Assembly (NCBI GenBank): GCA_028820695.1
Contig: JAPPIB010000042.1
Coordinates: 62,001-126,000 of the forward strand
Direction: 5' to 3'
Source: Acidiferrobacterales bacterium
GTDB taxonomy: Bacteria > Pseudomonadota > Gammaproteobacteria > Arenicellales > JAJDZL01
Length of the DNA: 64,000 nucleotides
The number at the start of each line of letters is the position of its first letter. Positions within the stretch are counted from its first letter, which is position 1. Shown here piece by piece: positions 3,004-46,058 of the stretch. A program made the position numbers and the translations under genes. The notes below the pieces were generated by a model that was given only the letters and a program-made list of their open reading frames with translations, was not told the DNA's origin and ran no database searches.

Positions 3004-4535
3004 TGCAACACAATATTGAACTGACGCCGTAGTTGCGCATCGACTCTTGAATCGATGTAATCCGGGTGATGATCTGCCAATACCTTTCTCACATGTGCAT
3101 TGGCCTTTTCGCGAATTGTCTGCTTTCCATCTTCCATCCAGGAGTCCGGGTCCTGACGGTTTGAATGCGCGGGATAGTAATAGTCACGTTCCATGGCTGC
3201 CATCGTGTGCTGGCCTCCAAGAAAATGCCCCTCACCGAATACAGCCTCTCGAATTGCCTCAAATCCCATAGTCTCTTCGTTTACTTCGATCCCTCGCATC
3301 AGTCGATAGACATGGCAGAGCATTTCATCATCAATCACGAAAGCTTCAAATGACACGCCGAGCAGACTGGCCATCATGCCAGACGACTCATAGATCAGAT
3401 TACCGCCGGCCAGTCCGGTCGCAGTCGCAGATATCCCTTTTTCGAAACCCATTTGTGCGTCCACCGCTTTCGCATCGGCCATGCTGCTCGCAACTCCTGA
3501 TGGAAGTCCCAGCCAATTCGTGATCTGAGCCGCAGCAGCATTCAAGACAGATATCTCTCCCCCACTGCCCGCAAAAGCACCGGTACGCAAGTCGATGACG
3601 AAAGGCCAATTCGAAAAGATCATCGGATATCCGCTCTCAAACACATTGACCATGATCAGTGCCGCCAGCGTTTCTGCCAATGTTGAAACCAGCATTCCAG
3701 CTGGAGCTGCCGGTGCAGTCGCTCCTGATTGCGCTGCTATGATACAGTTGAGCGGCATTCTGTTCCGCATTGCGGCAATTGCAACGAATACTGCATCCTC
3801 ACCATAGCGCAGCGGCGATACAACCGGACTGATATGAGCCTTGCAGAATGGTCTTTTCCGAAATTCCCCTTCCCCTCCGAGAACAAGATCAAACATCCTG
3901 ACAGCCGGGTCGACATGATCACCAGCGAAGAAACTGGTTCCTACCGGTTTGGTTGTCCCCTTAAGCAACGCGTAAGCGGTATTGATGTCAAGGTCGAAGT
4001 TGTTCGGAATGTCAGTGGCTACACAGCAGCGTGTAAACCACGAAATATTTTTCAGTGTGTCTGCGAGTCGGGTGAAGTCATATAGATCTTTAATTGTCGA
4101 TGGGCGATAGCTGCCGCTTTCAAGATCCATCGTTTGCACAGCGGCACCGCCGGTGCCGAAATAAACCCGGCTTCCACCGACTTCGATGTCATGTTTCGGA
4201 TCGCGACCGAAGAAAACAAACGACTGGCATGCTGTAGCCACAACATCCTCAATCATGCTTCGGGGGAAGCAGAGTCTTCCGGCATCACTCAGATGTGCAC
4301 CGGCCTGCAAAGCCCTGTCAGTCAGATCGCTTGCGGAGTTGTCCATGCCGATCTGTTCTAAAACCTTGACTGCGGTATCAAAGATCGACTCCATCTCATG
4401 CTGGCTGAGTGGTTGATAGTCTCCACCGGTCGTCCCTACAGGACACGGATCGATCACAGGTGGCTGAGCGCGCAACGTACGAATCGCGTCTCTGCCCGAG
4501 CGGCCACTTCGCATGCTGTGTCGCTTGCCCGTCAT
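3000..4535 (-). CDS. MttB-family (trimethylamine methyltransferase superfamily) methyltransferase
   Basis: This 511-residue protein belongs to the MttB superfamily, which demethylates quaternary or tertiary amines. True trimethylamine:corrinoid enzymes contain pyrrolysine encoded by an in-frame TAG; here the frame is continuous without an amber codon, so it is a non-pyrrolysine member, the group that includes glycine betaine methyltransferase MtgB. Recognisable segments are VYFGTGGAAVQTMD, the TIM-barrel strands around KAHISPVVSPLRYGED and MIFSNWPFVIDLRTG, and the C-terminal FGEGHFLGGQHTMAAMERDY. The start at 4535 overlaps the stop of the upstream FAD/GcvT gene by 4 bp (ATGA), so the two are translationally coupled. 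No corrinoid-binding protein or reactivase is nearby, so the methyl acceptor is uncertain; the coupled folate-binding enzyme is a candidate partner by inference. Confidence 0.88.
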   Translation of the reverse strand: MTGKRHSMRSGRSGRDAIRTLRAQPPVIDPCPVGTTGGDYQPLSQHEMESIFDTAVKVLEQIGMDNSASDLTDRALQAGAHLSDAGRLCFPRSMIEDVVATACQSFVFFGRDPKHDIEVGGSRVYFGTGGAAVQTMDLESGSYRPSTIKDLYDFTRLADTLKNISWFTRCCVATDIPNNFDLDINTAYALLKGTTKPVGTSFFAGDHVDPAVRMFDLVLGGEGEFRKRPFCKAHISPVVSPLRYGEDAVFVAIAAMRNRMPLNCIIAAQSGATAPAAPAGMLVSTLAETLAALIMVNVFESGYPMIFSNWPFVIDLRTGAFAGSGGEISVLNAAAAQITNWLGLPSGVASSMADAKAVDAQMGFEKGISATATGLAGGNLIYESSGMMASLLGVSFEAFVIDDEMLCHVYRLMRGIEVNEETMGFEAIREAVFGEGHFLGGQHTMAAMERDYYYPAHSNRQDPDSWMEDGKQTIREKANAHVRKVLADHHPDYIDSRVDAQLRRQFNIVLH

Positions 4536-33028: not shown

Positions 33029-33440
33029 ATGAGCAGAAGGAGAGTTGTGATGAGAAATCATTTGGAGATACTGCGCTTACGACATGATTGCGGCCTGACG
33101 GTACGCCGCATAACGGAGGTATTGGGGCTGAGCACCGCAGCGGTGCACAAGGTGTTCAAAGCGACAGGACAAACCGGTATAAAGTGGCCGTTGCCGGGCG
33201 GTTTTGATGAAGATCAGTTAGGGTTGCTGCTGTATGGCAAGTCGTCACAGGCGGCTTCGTCGTTTGAAACTGACTTTGACTGGGTACACCGGGAAAAGCA
33301 GAAAAAGGAGGTCACGTTGCGGCTGTTGTGGTATGAGTTGCAGCAGCAGGGGTTAGGCTGCAGTTATTCGCATTCTTGCGAGTTATATTTGCGCTGGAAG
33401 AAAACCAGGCAGCTGTCCATGCATCAGGTTCAGCTGTGGA
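33029..33440 (+). pseudogene. istA: IS21-family transposase IstA, N-terminal fragment
   Basis: The frame starts MRNHLEILRLRHDCGLTVRR and carries the helix-turn-helix region (ITEVLGLSTAAVHKVFKATG), then IKWPLPGGFDEDQLGLLLYG and FDWVHREKQKKEVTLRLLWY. It ends in the family segment KKTRQLSMHQ. These are the IS21 IstA DNA-binding motifs. The DDE domain is missing; after about residue 138 the frame reads unrelated sequence through 33541 and reaches the G+C-rich block. It is thus cut by the junction with the giant surface gene, and may mark the insertion or recombination point of that block. Confidence 0.75.
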
Positions 33441-33551
33441 TACCGGATGAACTGACCCCGCCATGTCGGGCATCGGCAATGGGACAGGAAACCGGAAACG
33501 ACCTGCATGGCGGCACTGCCACTGTCCCCGGTGGAGGATGATAGCCTGAGT

Positions 33552-33579
33552 GCGCCCGGCGACGCTTACCACCGGGCGC
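33552..33579 (-). terminator. Hairpin overlapping the end of the giant surface gene
   Basis: GCGCCCGG at 33552-33559 and CCGGGCGC at 33572-33579 form a perfect 8-bp stem with a 12-nt loop that contains the TAA stop (33566-33568) of the minus-strand gene. There is no T-tract, so termination would be weak or factor-aided; it may protect the 3' end of the long mRNA. Confidence 0.45.
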
Positions 33580-36500
33580 TGAACTCAAAGCCTATGCGGT
33601 CTAACGGGTCTGCGGCATCGCTGTGCCTTCGCGTCGCCTGGATGTCGAAGGAAAAGTCCACGGCACCGGCCCGGGAGGCAGGAGTCAGTTTCCATCCGAG
33701 GCGGTAATCGCGAACGCCGGTGGCGCGGCCGAGTTCCATATTCGGGCTGCCGGTGAAGCGTCCCGAGAAGACCGGGAAGCCGTAGGCCGCCTCCATCGAC
33801 CAGCGGGTGGCGGTGCTGCTAGGGGAACGCTCTGCCACCGGATCGGGGGCGAACAGCGCATCGAGGCCGCCTTCGGCCTGTCCGCCCCAGTTCTGGCGAA
33901 GCGCGAGCGACGGGCCGCGTGCCGAGACCGGGTCAGGATCAAAGGCGAGCGAAGCCGAGTAGCCGCGCTCCTTGAAGCCATCGGCGTCGTGGGTGACCAG
34001 CCTTCGGCCTGACATTTCGAGCGCAAGGCCAAGGGCCGGGTCGCTCCACGCAATGCCGCCGCCCAGTTCGATGCCAAAGCCGGTTTCGGCATCGCCGCCG
34101 TCATGGCGCACGCCGGCCTCCAACTTCGTCTCGATCCGGCTGCCGGCTTCAAGTTCGGTCCGGTAGCTGCCTTCCAGGCCGAAGCGAAGGCGCGTCACTT
34201 CGGAATCCGATGCCGCCAGCCTGTTCGTCCTGTCCGAGACGGTGCGCGTCCACAAGCCGTCCGAGGTCACCGCCAGCGCGGGACCTGATCCGTGCGCCTG
34301 CGGCTCAATCACCTCGCCGCGCAGGCCCGCTGCCGCCATCGTCCAGGCCAGATCAGAGCGGTACGAGCCGCCCGAGTCTGGCTTCAGCGTCATCTCGCCG
34401 CTGCCGTAGCCGGCTGCGCCCCACAGATTCAACCGCTCCGAGACCTTAAGCGCCGCATAAGGCACCGCCGAAGTCAGCGCCGCCTTGACATCGCCGTCGC
34501 CATGCCGCACGGCACCGTTGCAAACAACCGTGCTGCCGGGACAGGCTTCAGGCCCGGTGGCGGAATCCGCATACCCGCCCTTGCCGCTCGTTTGCATCAA
34601 AATCAGCCCGACCAGCGAGTCGTCGCGGGCATAATCCGCACCAAGCATGACGTTGGCGGCGTCGCCATCAAGCGAGAAGCCGCCTTCCTTGCCATTGAAC
34701 TCCGACTGCGCCGCCCGGCCCCAAACGGCCAGGCTGCCGCCCGCACCGTCCTTCTTCCCGGTCAGCGTGAAGCTGCTGCCAAGCAGCACCTCGCGGGGCG
34801 TCATGGAATACGACTGCACTCCGGTGTCGCGGCCGGAGCCGAGCCTGTGTGCGCCAGCGCCAATCCCGCCATCGCCCCGGACGACGCTGCCGGAAGCAAA
34901 GGCGCGGGTGACCCGACCCGGCATTTCATTGCCGCCCGCCGCCGGTTGCGATCCGGAACCGAAGTTCAGTGCCTGTCCGGCGAGGGTACTCTGCATGCCT
35001 TCGATACGCGGCGCCGCCATGCGCCCGGCAATACCGTCGAGCGCCTGTTCCGCCGCAGCGCGACCGAAGCGCGACAGCCACGCCGCCGGCATCGGATCCG
35101 AATTCACGATCGTACCCACCGCAACCCCGTCATCGATTACCGCACCGCTTGGACTGTACAGCTCCACCTCAAATGTCTCCGCCCCCTCATCGTGACTGTC
35201 ATTGTAGATATAGACCCAGAACCGCTTCTCAGTCTGGCCCGCCCACAACTGCAGCACCTGGTCCATCGCAAAATAGTCCTGGCCCTCCTCGGCCGACACC
35301 GGCGTGGACTCGCGCGTGCGCCAGTACACCGACACCGCCTGCTCCGAGGCGGAGGAGAGCTTCACAGTGAACCACATCAGCTTGTCCTTCTCGTTGACGC
35401 TCTCATCGCCGATCGTTAAAACCGGACCGGTGCCCGAGACGTCGTTGTCACTGACCTTGACCGATGCCGCATCGTCAGGCGCGGCCGCTACCGTGTAGCC
35501 GGTGCCGGGATCAAGCGTCGCGGTGATCGAACCGTCGGCTTCGTCCGCGCTGTCGTCGTCTGTCGCCACCGAAAACGCAGCGCTGCCGGAGACCGGAATG
35601 CTCACGGTTATCGATCCGGTTGCGCCCGACGCGGCGAAGTCGCCCGTCTCGGTGACCGTCACGGTCACATCGAGCGCCGCCGACGGCGCCGGGCTGGCCG
35701 TGATCGTAAAAGTGGCCGAAGCGCCCTCTGTCACCGCATCGCCGGCCGCGATGCTGACTTCGGACAGAGACTCAGCTTCGTCATTGTCGCGCACCGTTAC
35801 CGAGGCGCTCGCCTCACCTGCGGCCACCGTGTAGCCGGTGCCGGTATCGAAAGTCACACTCACCGAGCCGCTGGCCTCGTCCACGGCATCGTCGTCTGTT
35901 GCAACCGTCAAGGGGGTTTCCGCCTGCCCGGCCGGTATCGTCACCGTGCGGCTGCCCGCACCGGGTGCGGCGAGCACCGCACCGCTCTGGGCGACGGTGT
36001 ATTCGACCGTCAGGTCGGATTGCGGAGCCGGGACCGCCTTGAGCAGGAAGCCCGCCGCCACACCTTCTGTCACTTCACCGCCAATCGTGCCAGACACCAC
36101 GGCCACCACCGGCACGGAATCCTGCTTCACCTGTGTCGGCTGAACTGCCGCCGTCTCCAGGCATTCGAGCGCCGTCAGGAAAGGCTCCCAGCCGTGCCAC
36201 GACTTCTCCCGCTCACGCGCCTCGGCGGCGGTGAACGGTGTCAGGGTGCGGCCATCCGCCGTCCAGTCCGACGCCTTGCGCTCGCCAAAGGCCATCAGCA
36301 CCCGGAACCACCTCGCCCCTCGCACCGAATGGGTCTCGTTCATGTCATAGTAGTGCTCGGCGGTGGCCTTGAGCTCGTCGGACGCGCAGGCTGCCCGGGT
36401 GTCGGCGCTTTGCTGTGTGCCGAGCGGCGCCACATCGAGCGTCGCCGTTCGGGCAAGGCTGTCGAGCGGCTGCACCTGGCTGTTCCCGTCCAGGTACTGG

Positions 36501-39500
36501 GGCGTCACCGTCACGGTGAGCGTCATCGGCTCCGAAGACTCGTGCCGGATGGTCGCCGAGGTGCCCGTCACGTCGGGCACGGTGCCGGTCAAAGGCGCCA
36601 GCGGGTCGCTGCCCACGGCCTTCCACGACACCCCGTAGGAGGTCGCATGCTCTACCGCATCCCAGGTCACTGTTGCACTCGCATCGTCCACCGCAGCGAC
36701 ATTGACGTTGGAGACCGCCGCGGTGGGAATCTCAACCGCGGGTGCGCTGTTCGTCTGGGGAGCCGCCTGGCCGGGCTCGAAGACCGTCACCGGCCATGTC
36801 AGCCGCCATGAGTGCGTCCCGTCCCTTCCCCAGGTCAGGTTGATCGCCGTGACCCGCAGTTCGGTCCTGTCCGGCGACGGACAGGCACCGCCGTTGTCGG
36901 TGGTGCAGCCGCCGGTATAGCTCGCGCTGTGGCCGCGCAGGCGCACCACATGCTCGCGCTTCGAGGCTGTAAAGGTCAGATTGTCGTCATAGGTTCCGGC
37001 AGGGAGTGCCTGCCCGTCCCGCCGGGTGGCGCTCGCCACCCCTTTTAACCAGGTGCCGACATAGACACCGATCCGCTTGCGGCTGCCATCGGGAATGAGT
37101 TGCTTGCTGACGCGGATCCGAAACTCCTTGTGACGGCCCTCTTCGACGGCAATCTCCCCGCCCGCCGGAGGCAGGTCCAGGACCTCGATCGGCGGATCGT
37201 TCTCCCTGACATCGACCGACACCGTCCAGCTTTTGCCGGTGGCGCCGGGATACACGTCGTTGGTGACCGTGCCGTCGCGCGTCACCGGATACATCGCCCG
37301 CACGGTGTGCAGGAGCGGCACTGGCTTCAGGTAATGGTCGGCGCAGGCAACCCTCGCCTTGACAGTCTGCCACTCGTTCCAGTTGCCCGGCGTGAAGGTC
37401 AGCCACAAGCCCTTGCGGTTGCGGCCACCGTCATTGTTCCCGACGAAAACGCGGTTCATCTCCGCCCCGGGGGTGCGTGAGCCGAAGCGGTCGTTGGGAT
37501 CCTGCACGACAACCGGCACCTCGCCCGGCGGTTCTGTCCGCAGCTTCACCTTGTAGCTCGGCCCGTGATTGCCGTCGCAGCCGTCGGCCTCGTTCCAGGT
37601 GAGGTGCGTGCGGTCAAACACCAGACCCGGAACCTCCCCGATCGGCGGCTCGATGATGCCAAGCGCAACTCCCGTGCCCCGCGTCACGCCGGCGGGAAGG
37701 CTGCCGGGGACGATGACCAGGTCGAACCGCTCCTCCCCTTCCTTCAGCGAATCCGCGACGGTGGAGATCGTCGCGGTCGCGCTGGTCCGAAGCGGCCGGA
37801 TGGTGAGCGCGATGTCGCTGCTGTCGTAATCGACGCCGTGGCCGGTTGCGCCACCAATGGGCGAGCTCATCGCGATCCGGACCGGCGTGGCCGCAAGCCG
37901 CGGGCTCGACAGCGTCACCGTCACCTGCATCCCGCCGCCCTCGCGCACGCGGTACTCCGGCTGCGAGAAGGACACGGTCCAGGTGTTCGCCATCGTGAAG
38001 CTGTTGTCGTTGGTGTCGCCCCTTCGCACCGTGTCGAGCGCGTTGCCTTCGGAGTCCTCGATGTTCTGATCGCTCGCGAAACCGAGCGTCACCGTGCCGT
38101 TGAGGTCGTACAGGTCGCCGCCGGAGACGAAGACGTGGTAGACCTCAGCGGAGATCTTCGCCACCCCGGTGATCCGGGCCGTGGTGCCCGAGACCTCGAA
38201 GTCGGCCGCGTCCACGTTAAGCGGCGCCTTGGAGAATGTCACCCGCCAGGTCAGGACGTCGGAATTCGTCGTCTCCGCAGTCGGCTCGCGACGCTCCATC
38301 GCACTCACGAAGAAGTTGGCGTTGTCAATCACGTAGGTGTTGTCGTTGGTGCCCGTGGGCGTGGTGTTGGAAAGCGCGTTGCCGGCCTCGTCCTCGATGT
38401 CCTGGGCACTCGCGAAGCTCAGCGTCACCGTGCCCTTGAGATTGTCCAGATCGCCGCCGGAGACGGTGACGTCATAAGCGTTGGTTTCGCCGACCTGCGA
38501 GGCGCCGGTCACCGTGGCGGTGGTGCCCGAGACCTCGAAGTCCGCCGCGTTCACGTTCAACACCACCCCGTCGAAGGTCACCTGCCAGGTCAGGCTGTCG
38601 GCATCGGTCGGCGAGGTGGTCGGGGACTGGCGCTCGACCGAGGAAACCACCGGCGCGATGCGGTCCACTTTGAAGCTGTTGTGGTTGTCGCCCGTGGGCG
38701 TGGTGTCGGAAAGCGCGTTGCCGGCCTCGTCCTCGATGTCCTGGGCACTCGTGAAGATCAGGTAGACAGTGCTAGAATCGAGGCTTGTCGAGGCGGCGAC
38801 GTCGTATGCGTTCGTGCTCTCCACCTGCGACACGGCCAGCGTGATGTTGCCGCCGGGCGCAACGTTGGAGTTTGGAACGAGTGAAACGGCGAAATCCGCC
38901 GCGTTCACGTTCTGCACCGCCTCGTCGAAGGTCACCCGCCAGGTCAGGCTTCGGCTGTTGGTCGGCGAGGAGGACGGGGACTGGCGCTCGATCGAGGTCA
39001 CGCGGGGCGCGGTCGTGTCGGAGTCGTCGTCCTCGACCGTGTAGGTCGCGGTGGACGTGCCCAGGGTCACACCGGTTGGGGGACTGACCAGGGACAGCGT
39101 GGCGATGATCGTCTCGTCGGACTCAGCGGTTGTGTCGCCATTGATCCGCATGCCGAAAGTGGTGAAGCTGGTTTGTCCGGCAGAAAAGGCAACATTTGAG
39201 CAGGCCAGGTTGTTGACCGATCCGCCGAGCAGCTTCTGGTAGTCATCGCCTGCGCTTGCGCCCCGGGTTGCCGTGCCGCTGTAGCAGACCCGTGTCTGGA
39301 CCGTGGACGAAACCGCATCCGACAGGCTCACCGTGAAGGACTTGTCCGTCGTGCCCGTATCCCCCTCGGCCGCATCGACGGGAGCGCTGATGGATGCCGT
39401 CGCCGTGTCGTCGTTCTTGATCGTGTAGGTCGCCGTGGCGGTGCCCAAGGTGACGCCGGCGGGGGGATTGCCAAAGAAGGATATGGTGGCGATGACCGTC

Positions 39501-40808
39501 TCATCGGACTCGACGGTGGTGTCGCCGCGGACCCGTATGCCGAATCTCGTTTCGGACGTCTTTCCCGCAGACACGGCGGTATTCGTGCACCTGCTTGTGT
39601 TGGGCGCGCCGCTGACCAGTCTCCGATAGTCATCGCCCGCGCCGTTTCCCCGGGACGCCGTGCCGCTGAAGCAGATCTGATAAGAGACGATACTCGACAC
39701 GCTCTGCGACAGACTCACCGTGAAGGTCTTGTCCGTCGTGCTCGAATCTCCCTCGTCCGCATCGGCGGGGGCGGTGATGGACAGTGCCACCTCGTCGTCA
39801 TCCTCGACCGTCACCGTGGCCGAGGACGGGTTGCCCACACTGTAGCCGGTGCCGCTGTTCAGCGTCACCGTCACGCTGCCGTTCGGTTCATCCGTGGTGT
39901 CGGCCTGCGTGGCGACGGTATAGGACGCGGAGGACTGGTTGGCGGGGATCCGCACGGTCTTGGAGCCCAGGTTGCCACCCGCCACGAAAGACCCGCTCTG
40001 GGTGACGTTCACGTCGACATCCAGGTTCGCGCTTGGCTCCGGGTCGGACTTCACCGTGAAGGTCGCCGCCGTGCCCTCCGTCACCGCCGGACCGCCCGAG
40101 ATCGTCACATACGGGTCGTCGTCGTTCTGGATCGTGTAGGTCGCCGTGGAGGTGCCGAGCGTCACACCGGCTGGTGGGTTGACCAGGGAGATCGTGGCAA
40201 TGATCGTCTCGCTGGGCTCGCTGGTGGTGTCGCCGCGGATGCGGATGAAGGCTCCGTCGTATCTTGTGTTTGTGCTGAAATCATAGTCTTGTGTGGAGCA
40301 GCCGGGAAAGAGAAAACCAGTCGACCCAAATGTGATGTAGTCTTCAGCACCGGAAAACGTAAATGCAGAGACGTTAGGGGAACCGGTTTGTGGGGTGGCC
40401 CTGGTCGCCGTTCCTCCGCTGATGCACAATTGTACTGTGACATCCTGCGACAAGGTCGACGAAGAGGTAATGTGGAAGACCTTGTCCGTCGTGCCCGAGT
40501 TGCCCTCGTTGGCATCGGCATCCGCGCTGAGGGACACCGTGATGTTCGTCTGCGCAGCGGCCGGGGCGGCGAGGCCGAAAAGCAGGGGCAGGGAGAGTAG
40601 CAGTGCGGCCGCTAAACGGCGCAGGCAGCGAGTGGAAGGGGAATAAAAACTATCGGAGGAAGAAGTGGGTCGGGGGGGGGCGGAGTGCCTTAGACGGTGC
40701 CGCCGCGAAGACGCAGGAAAGGCGGTTCGACTTTATTGTCCTCGTCAAAACACTGCCACATCCCAACGCTTGTTGCAATCGCGCCCATACCGTCCGCTTC
40801 GAATCCAT
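33566..40808 (-). CDS. Giant Calx-beta/Ig-like repeat surface protein with C-terminal beta-barrel, frame broken at a C-tract
   Basis: The main frame (40651 region down to 33566, with no ATG/GTG/TTG before residue-level position 40537) encodes about 2,320 residues of exported repeat protein. Its order is: Calx-beta-type blocks with DDD/DNDE ends (about 1-510); three Ig-like copies marked SLTWRVTF and AADFEVS (510-850); further Calx-beta-like and other domains; a fibronectin-like stretch (1275-1370); a YYDMNETH/WFRVLMAFG segment (1395-1460); two AVTEGASATFTITASPAPSA repeats; a last Calx-beta block (1705-1800); and a roughly 500-residue C-terminal region with beta-barrel strands ending in FEFSARW, an outer-membrane type terminal aromatic. 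A signal peptide (CLRRLAAALLLSLPLLFGL, cleavage after APAAA) lies upstream in the same frame. The only well-placed start is ATG 40808, with GGAGGG 7 bases upstream, but it is in another frame and runs through nine C to a stop at 40650. Deletion of one C gives a 2,413-codon gene; a CTG at 40624 is an alternative start. High G+C indicates transfer. Confidence 0.85.
40672..40680 (-). repeat. Nine-C homopolymer tract near the 5' end of the giant surface gene
   Basis: The coding strand has exactly nine C between CTCCG and GACCC. Tract length 9 sends the ATG-40808 frame to a stop at 40650 after 52 codons, whereas 8 (or 11) C would join it to the giant frame, giving PPRPTSSSDSF then the signal peptide. 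A run of this length, at the 5' end of a surface-protein gene, is a typical slipped-strand phase-variation site. It could also be a homopolymer base-calling error. Confidence 0.75.
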
Positions 40809-41134
40809 CACAATTCCCTCCGTTCTGGACCCCAAGGCCCCAAATATCGTACAGCCCAAAATGCTAACGCCCCGAAGAGCGTGCCGCCGAATGTAGCCGC
40901 AGTATATCAAAAACCCAAAGCATCAAGTAAGACTTTCCCACGCTAAAAAAAGATAAAAAATTGTACAACCGCCGCAAAAATTTACCTGCGGGGCTGGCTC
41001 TTTTCGTTCGAATTTAGGGACCTGCAGTCGAGGATTTTGCAAGGTAGGCGCATGATATAATTTCGCATCAGTGTACCCATGACAGAATTGAGCCGAATCA
41101 TCGCGTTCAACGACCTAGATCAACACGTGAATTC

Positions 41135-42619
41135 GTGCATCCACTCCCTATCCATTCAACTCAGCAGTCGATAGAAATTGAGGATCTCGTAAGGCGGGAT
41201 TACGGTATTTCTGGCTACGAACTGATGCAGCGCGCAGGCCGCGGAGCGTTCGCGAAGTTGCGGGAATTATGGCCGCAGTGCCGGAAAATCGCCGTCCTTT
41301 GCGGATCCGGCAATAACGGCGGAGACGGTTATGTTTTCGCATCCGAGGCACTCGACGCTGGAATGGATGTCGAGGTTCGCTTTACCAACGAACCGAAGAC
41401 AACACAAGCACGTACGGCGAAAGAGAAGTTCCAAGATCGCGGGGGTAAACTTGCGCCTGACCGCCTTGACAGCGGATGTTCGGAGTTTGATGTTGTGATC
41501 GATGCGTTGCTTGGTATCGGATTGAACAAGAAAATTACCGGTCGGATGGCTGATGCGGTGAATGTGGTCAATCGAACTTCTAAACGGGTGATGTCGCTGG
41601 ATGTTCCAACCGGGGTGGATTCGGATTCAGGCGCGCTGGTTGGTCCTGCGGTCGTCGCTGGCGCTACCGTGACATTCATTTCGCCCAAGTTGGGCTTGTT
41701 CTGTCTCCCGGCGAGCGAACACGTCGGTCGCCTGTACATCGATACTCTTGATGTACCGAAAGACGCGTATGGCAAGGTCGGAAACGTCGCAAGTCTGGTG
41801 GATCCGAACGAGTTTGGCCCCAGGATTCCAATTCGAAAGCGTGCTGCCTACAAAAACAGCGTCGGCCAGGTCTTGATCATCGGTGGGAGTGAGTCAATGG
41901 AAGGTGCCGCCTTGATGGCAGCACAGGCTGCCTATCGCTCCGGTGCCGGCTTGGTGTCAATTGCGACGTTGGGTGGCGGAACGTCTCTCGTCCCCCTGCA
42001 CTCAGTGGAGGTCAGGATTCACAATGTTGCTGAAACGTCCGATCTGGAAAGGCTGATCGAAATTCACGACGTTATCGGCATTGGTCCCGGACTCGGACTG
42101 AGCGATTTGGCTCGCAAGAGTGTTGAGATTGTTGGAAAGTCGGACAAGAGGATTGTTGTGGATGCAGATGGGTTGACAGCACTTGCTGGAACCGGACTGG
42201 CAAGCGACAATTGGATACTGACCCCGCATCTTGGCGAGGCCGCCAGATTGCTGGGAACGACGACAGATATGATCAGAACAGAACGATTGAACACGGCATC
42301 CAAAATCGTCGAACGATACGGTGGAGTCTGTGTGCTCAAAGGCCAAAACACCGTCATCTCAACGAATGAGGAGAACTGGATTTGCATGCGAGGAAATCCC
42401 GGAATGGCGACCGCAGGAATGGGTGATGTGCTCACCGGTGTGATCTGCGGTATCTGGGGTGCAGGAACAAATATGGCAGTTGCAGCCAGGGCCGGCGTGT
42501 GGATACATGCAGTTGCAGGAGACGAGAGTGCGGCCGATCAGGGTCAGGTCGGGTTGATGGCAACCGATTTGTTGCCCGGAATCCGAAGAGCCGTCAACCA
42601 TGTACTCGACGATGCTTGA
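41135..42619 (+). CDS. nnr: Bifunctional NAD(P)H-hydrate epimerase/ADP-dependent (S)-NAD(P)H-hydrate dehydratase
   Basis: This metabolite-repair enzyme returns hydrated NADHX/NADPHX to NAD(P)H. The N-terminal YjeF epimerase domain has the motif AVLCGSGNNGGDGYVFA and FDVVIDALLGIGLNKKITG. The C-terminal ribokinase-like dehydratase has GQVLIIGGSESMEGAALMAA, IGIGPGLG, VLKGQNTVI and the nucleotide site GNPGMATAGMGDVLTGVI. The 494 residues match E. coli nnr (yjeF). The start is a GTG at 41135. It overlaps the earliest possible tsaE start and begins a long, tightly spaced run that includes tsaE, amiC, mutL, miaA and hfq. Confidence 0.93.
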   Translation: MHPLPIHSTQQSIEIEDLVRRDYGISGYELMQRAGRGAFAKLRELWPQCRKIAVLCGSGNNGGDGYVFASEALDAGMDVEVRFTNEPKTTQARTAKEKFQDRGGKLAPDRLDSGCSEFDVVIDALLGIGLNKKITGRMADAVNVVNRTSKRVMSLDVPTGVDSDSGALVGPAVVAGATVTFISPKLGLFCLPASEHVGRLYIDTLDVPKDAYGKVGNVASLVDPNEFGPRIPIRKRAAYKNSVGQVLIIGGSESMEGAALMAAQAAYRSGAGLVSIATLGGGTSLVPLHSVEVRIHNVAETSDLERLIEIHDVIGIGPGLGLSDLARKSVEIVGKSDKRIVVDADGLTALAGTGLASDNWILTPHLGEAARLLGTTTDMIRTERLNTASKIVERYGGVCVLKGQNTVISTNEENWICMRGNPGMATAGMGDVLTGVICGIWGAGTNMAVAARAGVWIHAVAGDESAADQGQVGLMATDLLPGIRRAVNHVLDDA

Positions 42620-42641
42620 ATCGGGGCGTAGCGAGCTGGAC

Positions 42642-43082
42642 ATGCAGACACAATGGATTATCAACTCTCGGCGCAAAGTTACGGACCTGAGCGAATATCT
42701 GGCGCATAATGTTCGATGCGGTAGTTGCATGTATTTTGAAGGCGATCTCGGGGCTGGGAAAACGACGTTGGTCCGTTCGGTTTTTCGAAATTTGGGTATA
42801 ACCGGAGCGATTCCGAGTCCGACATTCTCAATCATGGAGACATACACGACGCCTGACGGTCTGGAATTGCTGCACCTCGATCTTTATCGGATTGAGAATC
42901 CACAGGAACTGGCTCTGATTGGACTCGATGAGTTCACAAAGGATGATTGGGCGTGGTTTATCGAGTGGCCGCAAAACGGTGCTGACATCATTCCGGACGC
43001 GGACATGCGCATTGGCCTGCGTCACGCCGGGGACGCAAGAATTGTGGAATTTCCTCGTGAGTCAGATGGAGTGCTGGAGTGA
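42642..43082 (+). CDS. tsaE: tRNA threonylcarbamoyladenosine biosynthesis protein TsaE
   Basis: TsaE is the ATPase partner of TsaD/TsaB in making t6A at position 37 of ANN-decoding tRNAs. The P-loop is FEGDLGAGKTTLVRS, followed by the switch region PSPTFSIMETY, then LLHLDLYRI and IEWPQNGADIIPDADMRIGL, all diagnostic. I use ATG at 42642 (146 residues), because the P-loop then falls at about residue 34 as in E. coli. An in-frame ATG at 42600 would overlap nnr by 20 bp. The stop (43080-43082) lies one base before the amiC start codon. Confidence 0.93.
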   Translation: MQTQWIINSRRKVTDLSEYLAHNVRCGSCMYFEGDLGAGKTTLVRSVFRNLGITGAIPSPTFSIMETYTTPDGLELLHLDLYRIENPQELALIGLDEFTKDDWAWFIEWPQNGADIIPDADMRIGLRHAGDARIVEFPRESDGVLE

Positions 43083-43083
43083 G

Positions 43084-44247
43084 ATGGCAAGCAAGTTGGA
43101 TTCGGTATTCATTCGTCTGATCCTGCTGTCATGTTTTGCGATGCCATCGTCGCAGCTTTGGGCGGCAACCGTCACCGACGTCAGAGTCTGGAACTCGCCT
43201 GAACGAACCCGAGTTGTTCTTGACGTCAGTGACAGCGTCTTTTACAACATTTTTGAACTTGACAATCCCTCTCGTATCGTCATCGACATTGCACCGGGAG
43301 AGTTTGTCGGCAAAGTACCGGCCAAATCAAAACTTGGCCCCCTGATCAGCTCATTCAGGGTCGGTGGCCAGGAAGGTACTGTACGTTTCGTGCTGGATCT
43401 CAACTCTAAAGTCAGCCACGAGCACTTCACTTTGCGCCCAAATGACATTTACGGTGACAGGTTGGTTGTTGACATCAGTTCGCCGACGCAGCCGAAGCGA
43501 ATTGAGCCGAAACAGAAAGTTGCCAACAAAACCGACTTTCTGGTCGTGATTGATGCAGGCCATGGCGGTGAGGACCCGGGTGCGATTGGCGCAAGAAAGA
43601 CCTATGAAAAGCATCTTGTCCTGCAAATATCAAAGAAACTAAAGAGGTTTATTGACAGCCAGGCCGGATTTCGTGCTGAACTGACCAGAAAAGGGGACTA
43701 CTATATTCCACTGCGCAGACGCACTCAGATCGCAGAAGAGAAAAATGCCGACCTGTTTATTTCGATCCACGCGGATGCATTCACCCGAAGAAGTGCACAT
43801 GGTGTTTCAGTATTCGCACTGTCAACCAAAGGTGCAACCAGTGAACGTGCGAGGGCGATCGCGAACAAGGAAAATTCAACCGATTTGCTCGGCGGCGAGA
43901 ATTTGTCCGGTTACGACGATGCTGTCGTCGATGTAATGGCCGGCCTCGCACTCGACAAGCAGATCGAACGCAGTCTTGATATTGGCGCAAAAGTCAGATT
44001 GCGACTCTCAAGCATCGCCAGGATGCATGGCAATATGGTCGAACAGGCCGGCTTTGTGGTGCTCAAGGCACCGCAGATTCCTTCCATTCTGATTGAGGTC
44101 GGATTCATCTCGAATCCTGCAGAGGAGAAGAAACTGAAAACCGATGCCTATCAGGACCGGCTGATCAAGGGTATCGGCAAAGCTGTTGTACAATTTGTCA
44201 GGGAAAACTCCTGGACTCAGGATGATTGGAGAACTGCCAGTAATTGA
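43084..44247 (+). CDS. amiC: N-acetylmuramoyl-L-alanine amidase AmiC-like
   Basis: A periplasmic zinc amidase that splits septal peptidoglycan during division. The 387 residues begin with a signal peptide (VFIRLILLSCFAMPSSQLWA), then an AMIN domain (VTDVRVWNSPERTRVVLDVS onward), then the amidase_3 domain. Catalytic/zinc motifs are VVIDAGHGGEDPGAIGA, LFISIHADAF and the C-terminal glutamate in SILIEVGFISNPAEEK. ATG at 43084 leaves one base after tsaE. The stop shares TGA with the mutL start ATG (TGATG), so translation is coupled. The sequence does not show whether EnvC- or NlpD-type activation is used. Confidence 0.94.
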   Translation: MASKLDSVFIRLILLSCFAMPSSQLWAATVTDVRVWNSPERTRVVLDVSDSVFYNIFELDNPSRIVIDIAPGEFVGKVPAKSKLGPLISSFRVGGQEGTVRFVLDLNSKVSHEHFTLRPNDIYGDRLVVDISSPTQPKRIEPKQKVANKTDFLVVIDAGHGGEDPGAIGARKTYEKHLVLQISKKLKRFIDSQAGFRAELTRKGDYYIPLRRRTQIAEEKNADLFISIHADAFTRRSAHGVSVFALSTKGATSERARAIANKENSTDLLGGENLSGYDDAVVDVMAGLALDKQIERSLDIGAKVRLRLSSIARMHGNMVEQAGFVVLKAPQIPSILIEVGFISNPAEEKKLKTDAYQDRLIKGIGKAVVQFVRENSWTQDDWRTASN

Positions 44248-46058
44248 TGGCTACCACTACACAAACCCCATTTCGTCAAGTGCCGCCTAAGTCGAGAATC
44301 AGAGTTCTTGACGACAATGTAATCAACAAGATCGCCGCCGGAGAGGTGGTGGAGCGTCCTGCTTCGGTACTGAAAGAGCTGATTGAGAACAGTATCGACT
44401 CCGGTGCCCGCAATATAGAGATACAAGCGCATTCCGGCGGCACCCAGAGCCTGCTGGTACGGGACGATGGCTGCGGAATCCCGCATGATGAGATAGAACT
44501 CGCCCTGTCCCGTCATGCCACCAGCAAGTTGAATCAATTCGATGACATTGAATTGATCGAGACTATGGGATTTCGCGGTGAGGCTCTGCCAAGCATCGCT
44601 TCGGTCGCCCGGGTCAACCTGTCAACCCGAACTGCTCAGGATAGTCATGGCTGGCACGTGCGTTGTGAGGGGGACGGTATGCTTTCGCGACCACAACCCA
44701 TTCAGCACGAGGTTGGTACCACTGTAGAGACTATGGACCTGTTCTTCAATGTTCCGGCCCGAAGGAAATTTCTGAGAGCGGAAAACACAGAGTATTCTCA
44801 TCTGGATCGGCTCGTAAGACAGATGGTTTTGGCGCGCACCGATATCCATTTCGTGTTCACCCACAACAAGAATCGTGCAACCCGATACCAGGCGGTCTCC
44901 GATGAGGACTCCATGCGCACACGTCTGGCAACGGTTTTGGGAGATGACTTCGGCGACACTTGCATCCGGGTGGAACTGACTTGGGACGATATGAAAATAA
45001 GCGGATGGGTGAGCACGCCTGATCAGACCCGCTCCCAGCCGGACCGTCAATACCTGTTCGTAAACGGCCGTAGCATCCAGGATCGCCGGATCATGCATGC
45101 TGTCCGGCAGGCATACGTGGACGTACTGTATGATTCATCGAGATTTCCTCTGTGTGTGCTGTATCTGGAGGCCGATCCGAAGTCAGTCGATGTCAATGTA
45201 CATCCGACCAAGTCGCAGGTTCGTTTTCGCAGGCACAACGATGTCTATCGGGCAGTGCTTCGCGCTGTCAGCGGTGCTCTGAGAAGTGAGCGACCGGGTC
45301 TGCGCATATCAACGGCCGCATCATCGCAACCTCATACTCACCACTCCTTTCCAACTCCCTTGCAGGGATCATTCCCGCTGCGGCCCGACAGCGATTGGAC
45401 TGCGTTGTCCGGCGGACGTCCGGGTATCGGGCATTCGTCCTTGTCCGGTACTGAAACTGCGACCGATGCGGACATTCCTCCGCTTGGTTTCGCGCTGGCT
45501 CAACTCGGTGGAGCCTACATACTTGCCGAGAACGAAAAGGGGCTGGTTATAGTTGATATGCATGCCTCGCACGAACGGATCACGTATGAACAACTGAAAA
45601 GAGACTTTGAGAATTCGCAACTGAAGTCTCAGGAATTGATTGTGCCGATCATCGTAATGATGACAACACAGGAAGCAGACGCTGCCATGAATTACAGCGA
45701 AGCGCTGGCCCATCTCGGATTCGACATAACCATTTCTGGTGAGAATGTTGTCTGCATACGTTCAGTGCCGGAATTTCTGGGCGACACCGACGCCGGGCAG
45801 ATCGTGCGCGATATCATCGCGGATCTGATCGAACACGACGACTCCAAGCGGGTGGAGCACATTCGGAACGAGATCTTGGCCTCGATTTCCTGCCACACCG
45901 CGATTCGGGCGAATCATCAACTCAGCATTCCTCAGATGAACGGATTGTTGCGGCAGATGGAAGCGACGGAGAATTCCGGTTATTGCAGTCACGGTCGACC
46001 CACCTGGAAGCAGTTTTCCATCGACGAACTTGACAAGTTGTTCTATCGAGGACGCTAG
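44247..46058 (+). CDS. mutL: DNA mismatch repair protein MutL (with endonuclease motif)
   Basis: MutL couples mismatch recognition to strand incision. The 603 residues comprise an N-terminal GHKL ATPase (IAAGEVVERPASVLKELIEN; DDGCGIPHDEI; TMGFRGEALPSIASVA), a central linker rich in Ser/Pro/His, and a C-terminal dimerisation domain. The C-terminal part contains VDMHASHERITYEQ at about 436-450, which closely follows the DQHA-x2-E-x4-E endonuclease motif found in MutL of MutH-less bacteria; E. coli MutL lacks it. That suggests strand discrimination without MutH. ATG at 44247 overlaps the amiC stop; an in-frame TTG one codon earlier is less likely. Confidence 0.95.
   Translation: MATTTQTPFRQVPPKSRIRVLDDNVINKIAAGEVVERPASVLKELIENSIDSGARNIEIQAHSGGTQSLLVRDDGCGIPHDEIELALSRHATSKLNQFDDIELIETMGFRGEALPSIASVARVNLSTRTAQDSHGWHVRCEGDGMLSRPQPIQHEVGTTVETMDLFFNVPARRKFLRAENTEYSHLDRLVRQMVLARTDIHFVFTHNKNRATRYQAVSDEDSMRTRLATVLGDDFGDTCIRVELTWDDMKISGWVSTPDQTRSQPDRQYLFVNGRSIQDRRIMHAVRQAYVDVLYDSSRFPLCVLYLEADPKSVDVNVHPTKSQVRFRRHNDVYRAVLRAVSGALRSERPGLRISTAASSQPHTHHSFPTPLQGSFPLRPDSDWTALSGGRPGIGHSSLSGTETATDADIPPLGFALAQLGGAYILAENEKGLVIVDMHASHERITYEQLKRDFENSQLKSQELIVPIIVMMTTQEADAAMNYSEALAHLGFDITISGENVVCIRSVPEFLGDTDAGQIVRDIIADLIEHDDSKRVEHIRNEILASISCHTAIRANHQLSIPQMNGLLRQMEATENSGYCSHGRPTWKQFSIDELDKLFYRGR

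Follow-up and report, generated by a model that had tools for sequence, protein, structure and literature searches.

Here we show data pointing to a giant autotransporter-like gene, apparently acquired horizontally, whose expression is most probably switched by slipped-strand mispairing at a tract of nine C's (C9) located ahead of its signal peptide (SP). The gene lies in a 64,000-nucleotide stretch of DNA (hereafter, the window) from a gammaproteobacterium that is related to marine-sponge symbionts. The first-pass annotation had proposed phase variation by slippage at this tract, and the proposal is supported by the presence of tracts in phase-variable gene classes of the same genome and genus, as well as by repeat-bearing homologues from several phyla. 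The strongest evidence for switching comes from the family of genes that share the C-terminal barrel of the product.

Reading frames, product, and origin of the giant gene

The main open frame of the gene comprises 2,388 codons from stop to stop (33566..40732, minus strand, as are all features of the gene given below) and carries the SP (RCLRRLAAALLLSLPLLFGLAAPAAAQ). The SP itself, RCLRRLAAALLLSLPLLFGLAAPAAA followed by Q (40553..40630), was recognized by eye and hydropathy, and it is separated from C9 (40672..40680; context CTCCG-C9-GACCC) by a linker, PTSSSDSFYSPST (40631..40671), which is homologous to PASSSDSF of a relative (L130) in the SP frame. As claimed earlier, this frame contains no ATG, GTG, or TTG ahead of the SP; the first such codon is a GTG at position 40537, after the SP. 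The only good start is an ATG at 40806..40808, preceded at a spacing of 7 nt by the Shine-Dalgarno (SD) sequence GGAGGG (40816..40821; scored 5/6 as CGGAGG), and this upstream start-plus-SD pattern recurs in the homologues. As read from the sequence, translation from this ATG would enter C9 in the wrong frame and end at position 40650 after 52 codons (MDSKRTVWARLQQALGCGSVLTRTIKSNRLSCVFAAAPSKALRPPPTHFFLR followed by the stop; 40650..40808). The assertion that deletion of one C joins the frames also holds, in that the two frames are offset by a single base, and either C8 or C11 yields a frame of 7,242 nt that encodes 2,413 residues plus a stop.

In the mechanism that we propose, translation would start at the ATG at 40808, and nine C's would direct the ribosome into the other frame and to the early stop (OFF), which is the state of the assembled sequence. 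A tract shortened by one C or lengthened by two would place the ribosome in the SP frame and give rise to the full-length protein (ON). The tract length would be expected to vary in the population, the ON form would be made, and switching may serve adhesion, immune evasion, or phage avoidance in an animal host. This scheme has the sequence logic of a contingency gene, namely a short repeat, within the translated 5' region, whose copy number determines whether the gene is in frame, and homologues likewise have repeats ahead of the SP, with our tract at a different exact position.

C9 is the sole run of at least seven C's or G's in the 7.2-kb gene, whose other C runs measure 1-6 and whose longest G run is 5. 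Taking the gene's own first-order Markov model as the homopolymer null, a C/G run of such length is expected 7e-4 times in a 200-nt leader. C8 is expected 1.24 times per 64 kb in the dinucleotide-shuffled whole window, which is less surprising than under the gene model, and the case for C9 therefore rests on its position plus its length. Nine C's constitute a modest tract, which weighs against a switch, and our analysis of the switch is based on assemblies. A search of 40600-41300 for a sigma-70-like promoter or a terminator yielded neither.

The product is most likely a giant autotransporter-like outer-membrane protein, with a long leader, an SP, Calx-beta-type repeats, and a C-terminal barrel, and it is predicted to be surface exposed. 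The passenger contains at least two Calx-beta stretches (PF03160), the best of which spans residues 1778-1863 (35144..35401; E 1.7e-22 for the whole protein), and it is followed by a 494-residue outer-membrane beta-barrel domain, putatively of autotransporter type (33569..35050), that ends in ...FEFSARW. Among 35 close aligned relatives of the barrel, 21 match TIGR01414, the family model of the autotransporter barrel, and 2 match PF03797; our own sequence matches none. An AlphaFold2 model (pLDDT 74) has the form of an outer-membrane barrel preceded by a helix, with seemingly ~18 strands versus 12 in classical autotransporters. The structural matches of this model are EspP (Z 15.2), NalP (Z 14.7), and EstA (13.7), and equally Fiu (16.5) and CymA (16.1), and no sequence relative of the barrel was found among the solved structures of the PDB.

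The gene is divergent from the cluster nnr-amiC-mutL-miaA-hflX, and positions 33029-46058 of the window hold, in order, an IS66 TnpA/IS21-like fragment that adjoins the giant gene (33029..33541, plus strand), the gene itself, and this conserved cluster. The GC content of the gene is ~66%, as against ~51% in the window. The nearest genus-mate has an nnr that is 80% identical, and its nucleotide similarity to the window ends just before this gene; different genes lie upstream, so that the orthologous site of the giant gene is unoccupied there. In a tree of barrels, ours falls among alphaproteobacterial, acidobacterial, and gammaproteobacterial sequences and apart from the paralogues of its own genome. 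Since the GC contrast, the IS fragment, the genus-mate site, and the barrel tree are all consistent with lateral acquisition, we regard the gene as probably acquired in this way. With the genus-mate G004, nucleotide similarity starts only at nnr. Among the points against a switch are the lack of homologues closer than ~65% identity and the unoccupied site in the nearest genus-mate.

Leader repeats in the barrel family

Relatives of the barrel domain are present in other sponge-type metagenome-assembled genomes (MAGs). Their sponge origin was deduced from bin names that match the sponges of a reef-sponge study (COS, CAR, RHO, IRC, APA; PMC8163846), and bins jk18, p16, and SB were assumed to be of similar origin. 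Because the family was sampled by barrel similarity, within genomes already holding a member, the fractions given below are not prevalence estimates. The survey of leader repeats covered barrel-family genes whose 5' end lies on the contig, and the 5' regions of L202, L205, L206, L211, L215, L216, L254, and L255 were excluded as not being true gene starts.

Many of these genes contain perfect tandem repeats between the start region and the SP, including GGTCGCCG (x11), GCCGGGTC (x5), ATCGCCGG (x7), AGCCGCCG (x5), TCCGCGCT (x6), GCTGGATC (x15), and ACCCGCAG (x10). Others carry 7-mers (AGCCAAG x9, AGCGCCG x8, AGCCGAG x11, ACCGCAG x7, and TCCGTCA x16), 5-mers (AGCCA x15, GAGCC x12, GCCAA x20, and AAGCC x27), or homopolymers (G13 and C18). 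In the first set of barrel-family loci (893 kb), 18 repeats passed a strict threshold, and 10 lie within the 15 visible leaders, whereas 0.05 would be expected from the rest of the 893 kb. The length of the leader repeat unit (5, 7, or 8 bp) is not divisible by 3 in 18 of 18 cases with units of at least 2 bp; three hexamer repeats outside the leaders are multiples of three, as expected of in-frame coding repeats. Repeat-bearing leaders were found in sponge-type MAGs of at least four phyla, and a single genome may host multiple members of this kind, such as G081 (5-, 7-, and 8-mer), G077 (two 5-mers), and G062 (7- and 8-mer).

The position of the start codon relative to the SP frame differs between members with and without repeats. 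Upstream starts with a strong SD are in frame in 10/10 repeat-free members versus 2/9 repeat-bearing ones, the gene of the window included (Fisher p=0.0007, a value that is only indicative because related sequences are not independent). Reading from an ATG with an SD stays open into the repeat in 7/12 cases, compared with 6.4% at random points. According to the first-pass annotation, an in-frame ATG just ahead of the SP in relatives would speak against the switch; upon inspection, the in-frame ATGs of the repeat-free relatives proved to lie a long way upstream of the SP, in most cases behind a good SD, and a long translated leader is thus supported. The same annotation had called the long N-region of the ON form unusual, and here the comparison points the other way: the relatives and a paralogue from the same genome have ~30-100 residues from start to SP.

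The linker between repeat and SP shows protein-level conservation in the SP frame, with dN/dS values of 0.30-0.77 in 8 of 9 pairs and 1.11 in the remaining one. For example, the linkers of a gammaproteobacterial member (L144) and a Rhodospirillaceae member (L223) share 36/46 residues (dN/dS 0.39) behind different 7-mers. Since the linker is conserved in this frame, the ribosome would normally arrive from upstream of the repeat. This bears on unswitched expression of our gene, either from a CTG start just ahead of the SP or by programmed ribosome or polymerase slippage on C9, to which we give hardly any credence. The CTG in question (within RCLRR) does have a counterpart Leu in L130 and L123, but no SD precedes it, L145 has Ala and L148 has Val at this site, and protein-level conservation in the SP frame extends upstream of it; CTG initiation is therefore unlikely.

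The main rival to a C9 switch, although itself unlikely, is a locked-OFF remnant, in which an ancestral upstream 8-mer switch (as in L130, L123, and L145) has been lost, the start has been left out of frame, and C9 is incidental. Such a remnant is conceivable because C9 does not lie at the position of the relatives' 8-mers: in a DNA alignment, it corresponds to an unrepeated 9-nt stretch in L130 and L123, whose 8-mer repeats are located further upstream. In addition, with C9 unchanged, the segment just upstream of it (PASSRRHRLRHS) still aligns with the SP frame of the relatives, and the present frame break may therefore reflect the disappearance of an upstream repeat that the ancestor had. 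The giant gene may have lost its ancestral repeat and then either gained C9 as a new switch or been locked in the OFF state. A locked-OFF locus is, however, at odds with a frame that is still open across 2,388 codons, with the low chance expectation of such a tract in the leader (see above), and with the likely role of C/G tracts as switches of other genes in this genome and genus (see below). Given the intact 7-kb frame, the improbable tract, and the tract use in the genome, we favor a new C9 switch.

Three further observations were made during the survey. A Nitrospira MAG (L229, G073:C24) contains a barrel-family frame of ~7,013 codons with G13 just ahead of the SP. Contigs end inside the 5' repeats of L136, L150, L177, L267, and L272, a place where assemblies are prone to break, with loss of the ATG. 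Finally, in a Silicimonas MAG, GGCCAAC x13 (L191:6190-6280) occurs at the 5' end of a gene for a Mod-like DNA methylase, which is probably another phase-variable methylase, of the 7-mer type.

C/G tracts elsewhere in the genome and genus

Away from contig ends, the 2.77-Mb genome contains about a dozen runs of at least nine C's or G's. Poly-C/G at contig ends (L012, L236, and L249) and an N-gap in L204 are possible assembly artefacts and were left uncounted. Tracts of G9-G12 are found in or beside genes for type III Mod methylases (L003, L012, and probably L013), two glycosyltransferases (L005 and L006), a ResIII protein (L007), and an N6 methylase (L010). At least two tract genes are frameshifted exactly at a G9, namely the type III Mod gene of L003 (1198-2973, minus strand), with G9 at its 5' side, and the N6 methylase gene of L010 (314-3444, plus strand), with G9 at 3014-3022; both are likely phase-variable restriction-modification (R-M) genes. 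In contrast, the tracts in the glycosyltransferase gene of L006 and in L009 are read through, and such a division is as expected of a population frozen in mixed ON/OFF states.

These data also bear on a homopolymer sequencing or assembly error, with a true tract of C8 and a gene that is simply ON, which we consider quite improbable. The genome is a draft MAG of 58 contigs, and some contig ends carry obviously artefactual poly-C/G (C37 start, C41; L012). However, relatives with clean 5-, 7-, and 8-bp tandem repeats are likewise out of frame, the genes broken at tracts in the same genome belong to the R-M class, which is a classical phase-variable class, and even a slippery C8 could still switch.

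The genus-mates have similar C/G tracts, mostly in R-M genes. One of them (G005; L098, G005:C23) harbors C13 (reverse complement 3005-3017) directly ahead of the SP of a protein with Trypsin and Autotransporter (PF03797) domains, of which no homologue was found in the other genus-mates. The complete genome of another (G002; L107, L108, and L111) contains several copies of the element gtaggaaacgcgttaccgcg-C11..13-gcacagatccgtgcgtgcac, a repeated sequence with a poly-C tract, and a small hairpin-like element, tgtacc(a/c)(t/c)tttatcccggtac, comes after a C10 tract in both L097 and L102, which are from two genus-mates.

Known systems and biological significance

Repeat-driven phase variation is known mostly from vertebrate pathogens and commensals. 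The Opa proteins of Neisseria, for instance, have CTCTT repeats in the region that codes for the SP; our family resembles them in having its repeats, pentamers included, at the 5' end near the SP, but it consists of giant barrel-anchored repeat proteins, whereas Opa proteins are small porin-like adhesins. Autotransporters switched by poly-C or GCAA are already well known. NalP and MspA of Neisseria meningitidis are switched by intragenic poly-C, with tracts of 6-15 in nalP (ON at 7, 10, and 13) and 6-14 in mspA (ON at 6, 9, and 12) (PMC3723659). The gene described here is like these in that a poly-C tract would switch an autotransporter-like protein, and it differs in that its tract precedes the SP within a long leader and its passenger is of the Calx-beta type, whereas NalP and MspA have solved or typed passengers and come from one pathogen. 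Autotransporters of the Lav/AutB type are switched by frameshifting short repeats, GCAA(n) in Lav (PMC9022572, PMC5118866); theirs are tetramers, while our family has homopolymers, 5-, 7-, and 8-mers, in sponge bacteria of several phyla.

A study of reef-sponge MAGs described sponge-enriched adhesion genes (cadherin and fibronectin III) and R-M systems, as well as lateral transfer between lineages (PMC8163846), and our findings share this setting, these gene classes, and lateral transfer. The words "autotransporter" and "phase" are absent from its text, and phase variation is not considered there. We came across no description of phase variation for sponge symbionts in the literature that we searched.

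Collectively, the sequences suggest that sponge microbes, like some human pathogens, may randomly turn their surface proteins ON and OFF. It seems reasonably likely that lateral transfer has spread a family of giant surface proteins with barrel anchors among sponge symbionts from several phyla (Alpha- and Gammaproteobacteria, Nitrospirota, and Acidobacteriota), that frameshifting repeats arose repeatedly ahead of the SP, and that several independently switching members per genome give rise to community-wide stochastic surface variation. If true, this helps explain why such genes break at contig ends and possibly are misannotated as start-less fragments or pseudogenes, and it would help account for the escape of symbionts from phages, grazing, or immune recognition by the sponge. 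If such switching is common across unrelated phyla of sponge symbionts, random surface switching would be part of an ancient partnership between animals and microbes.
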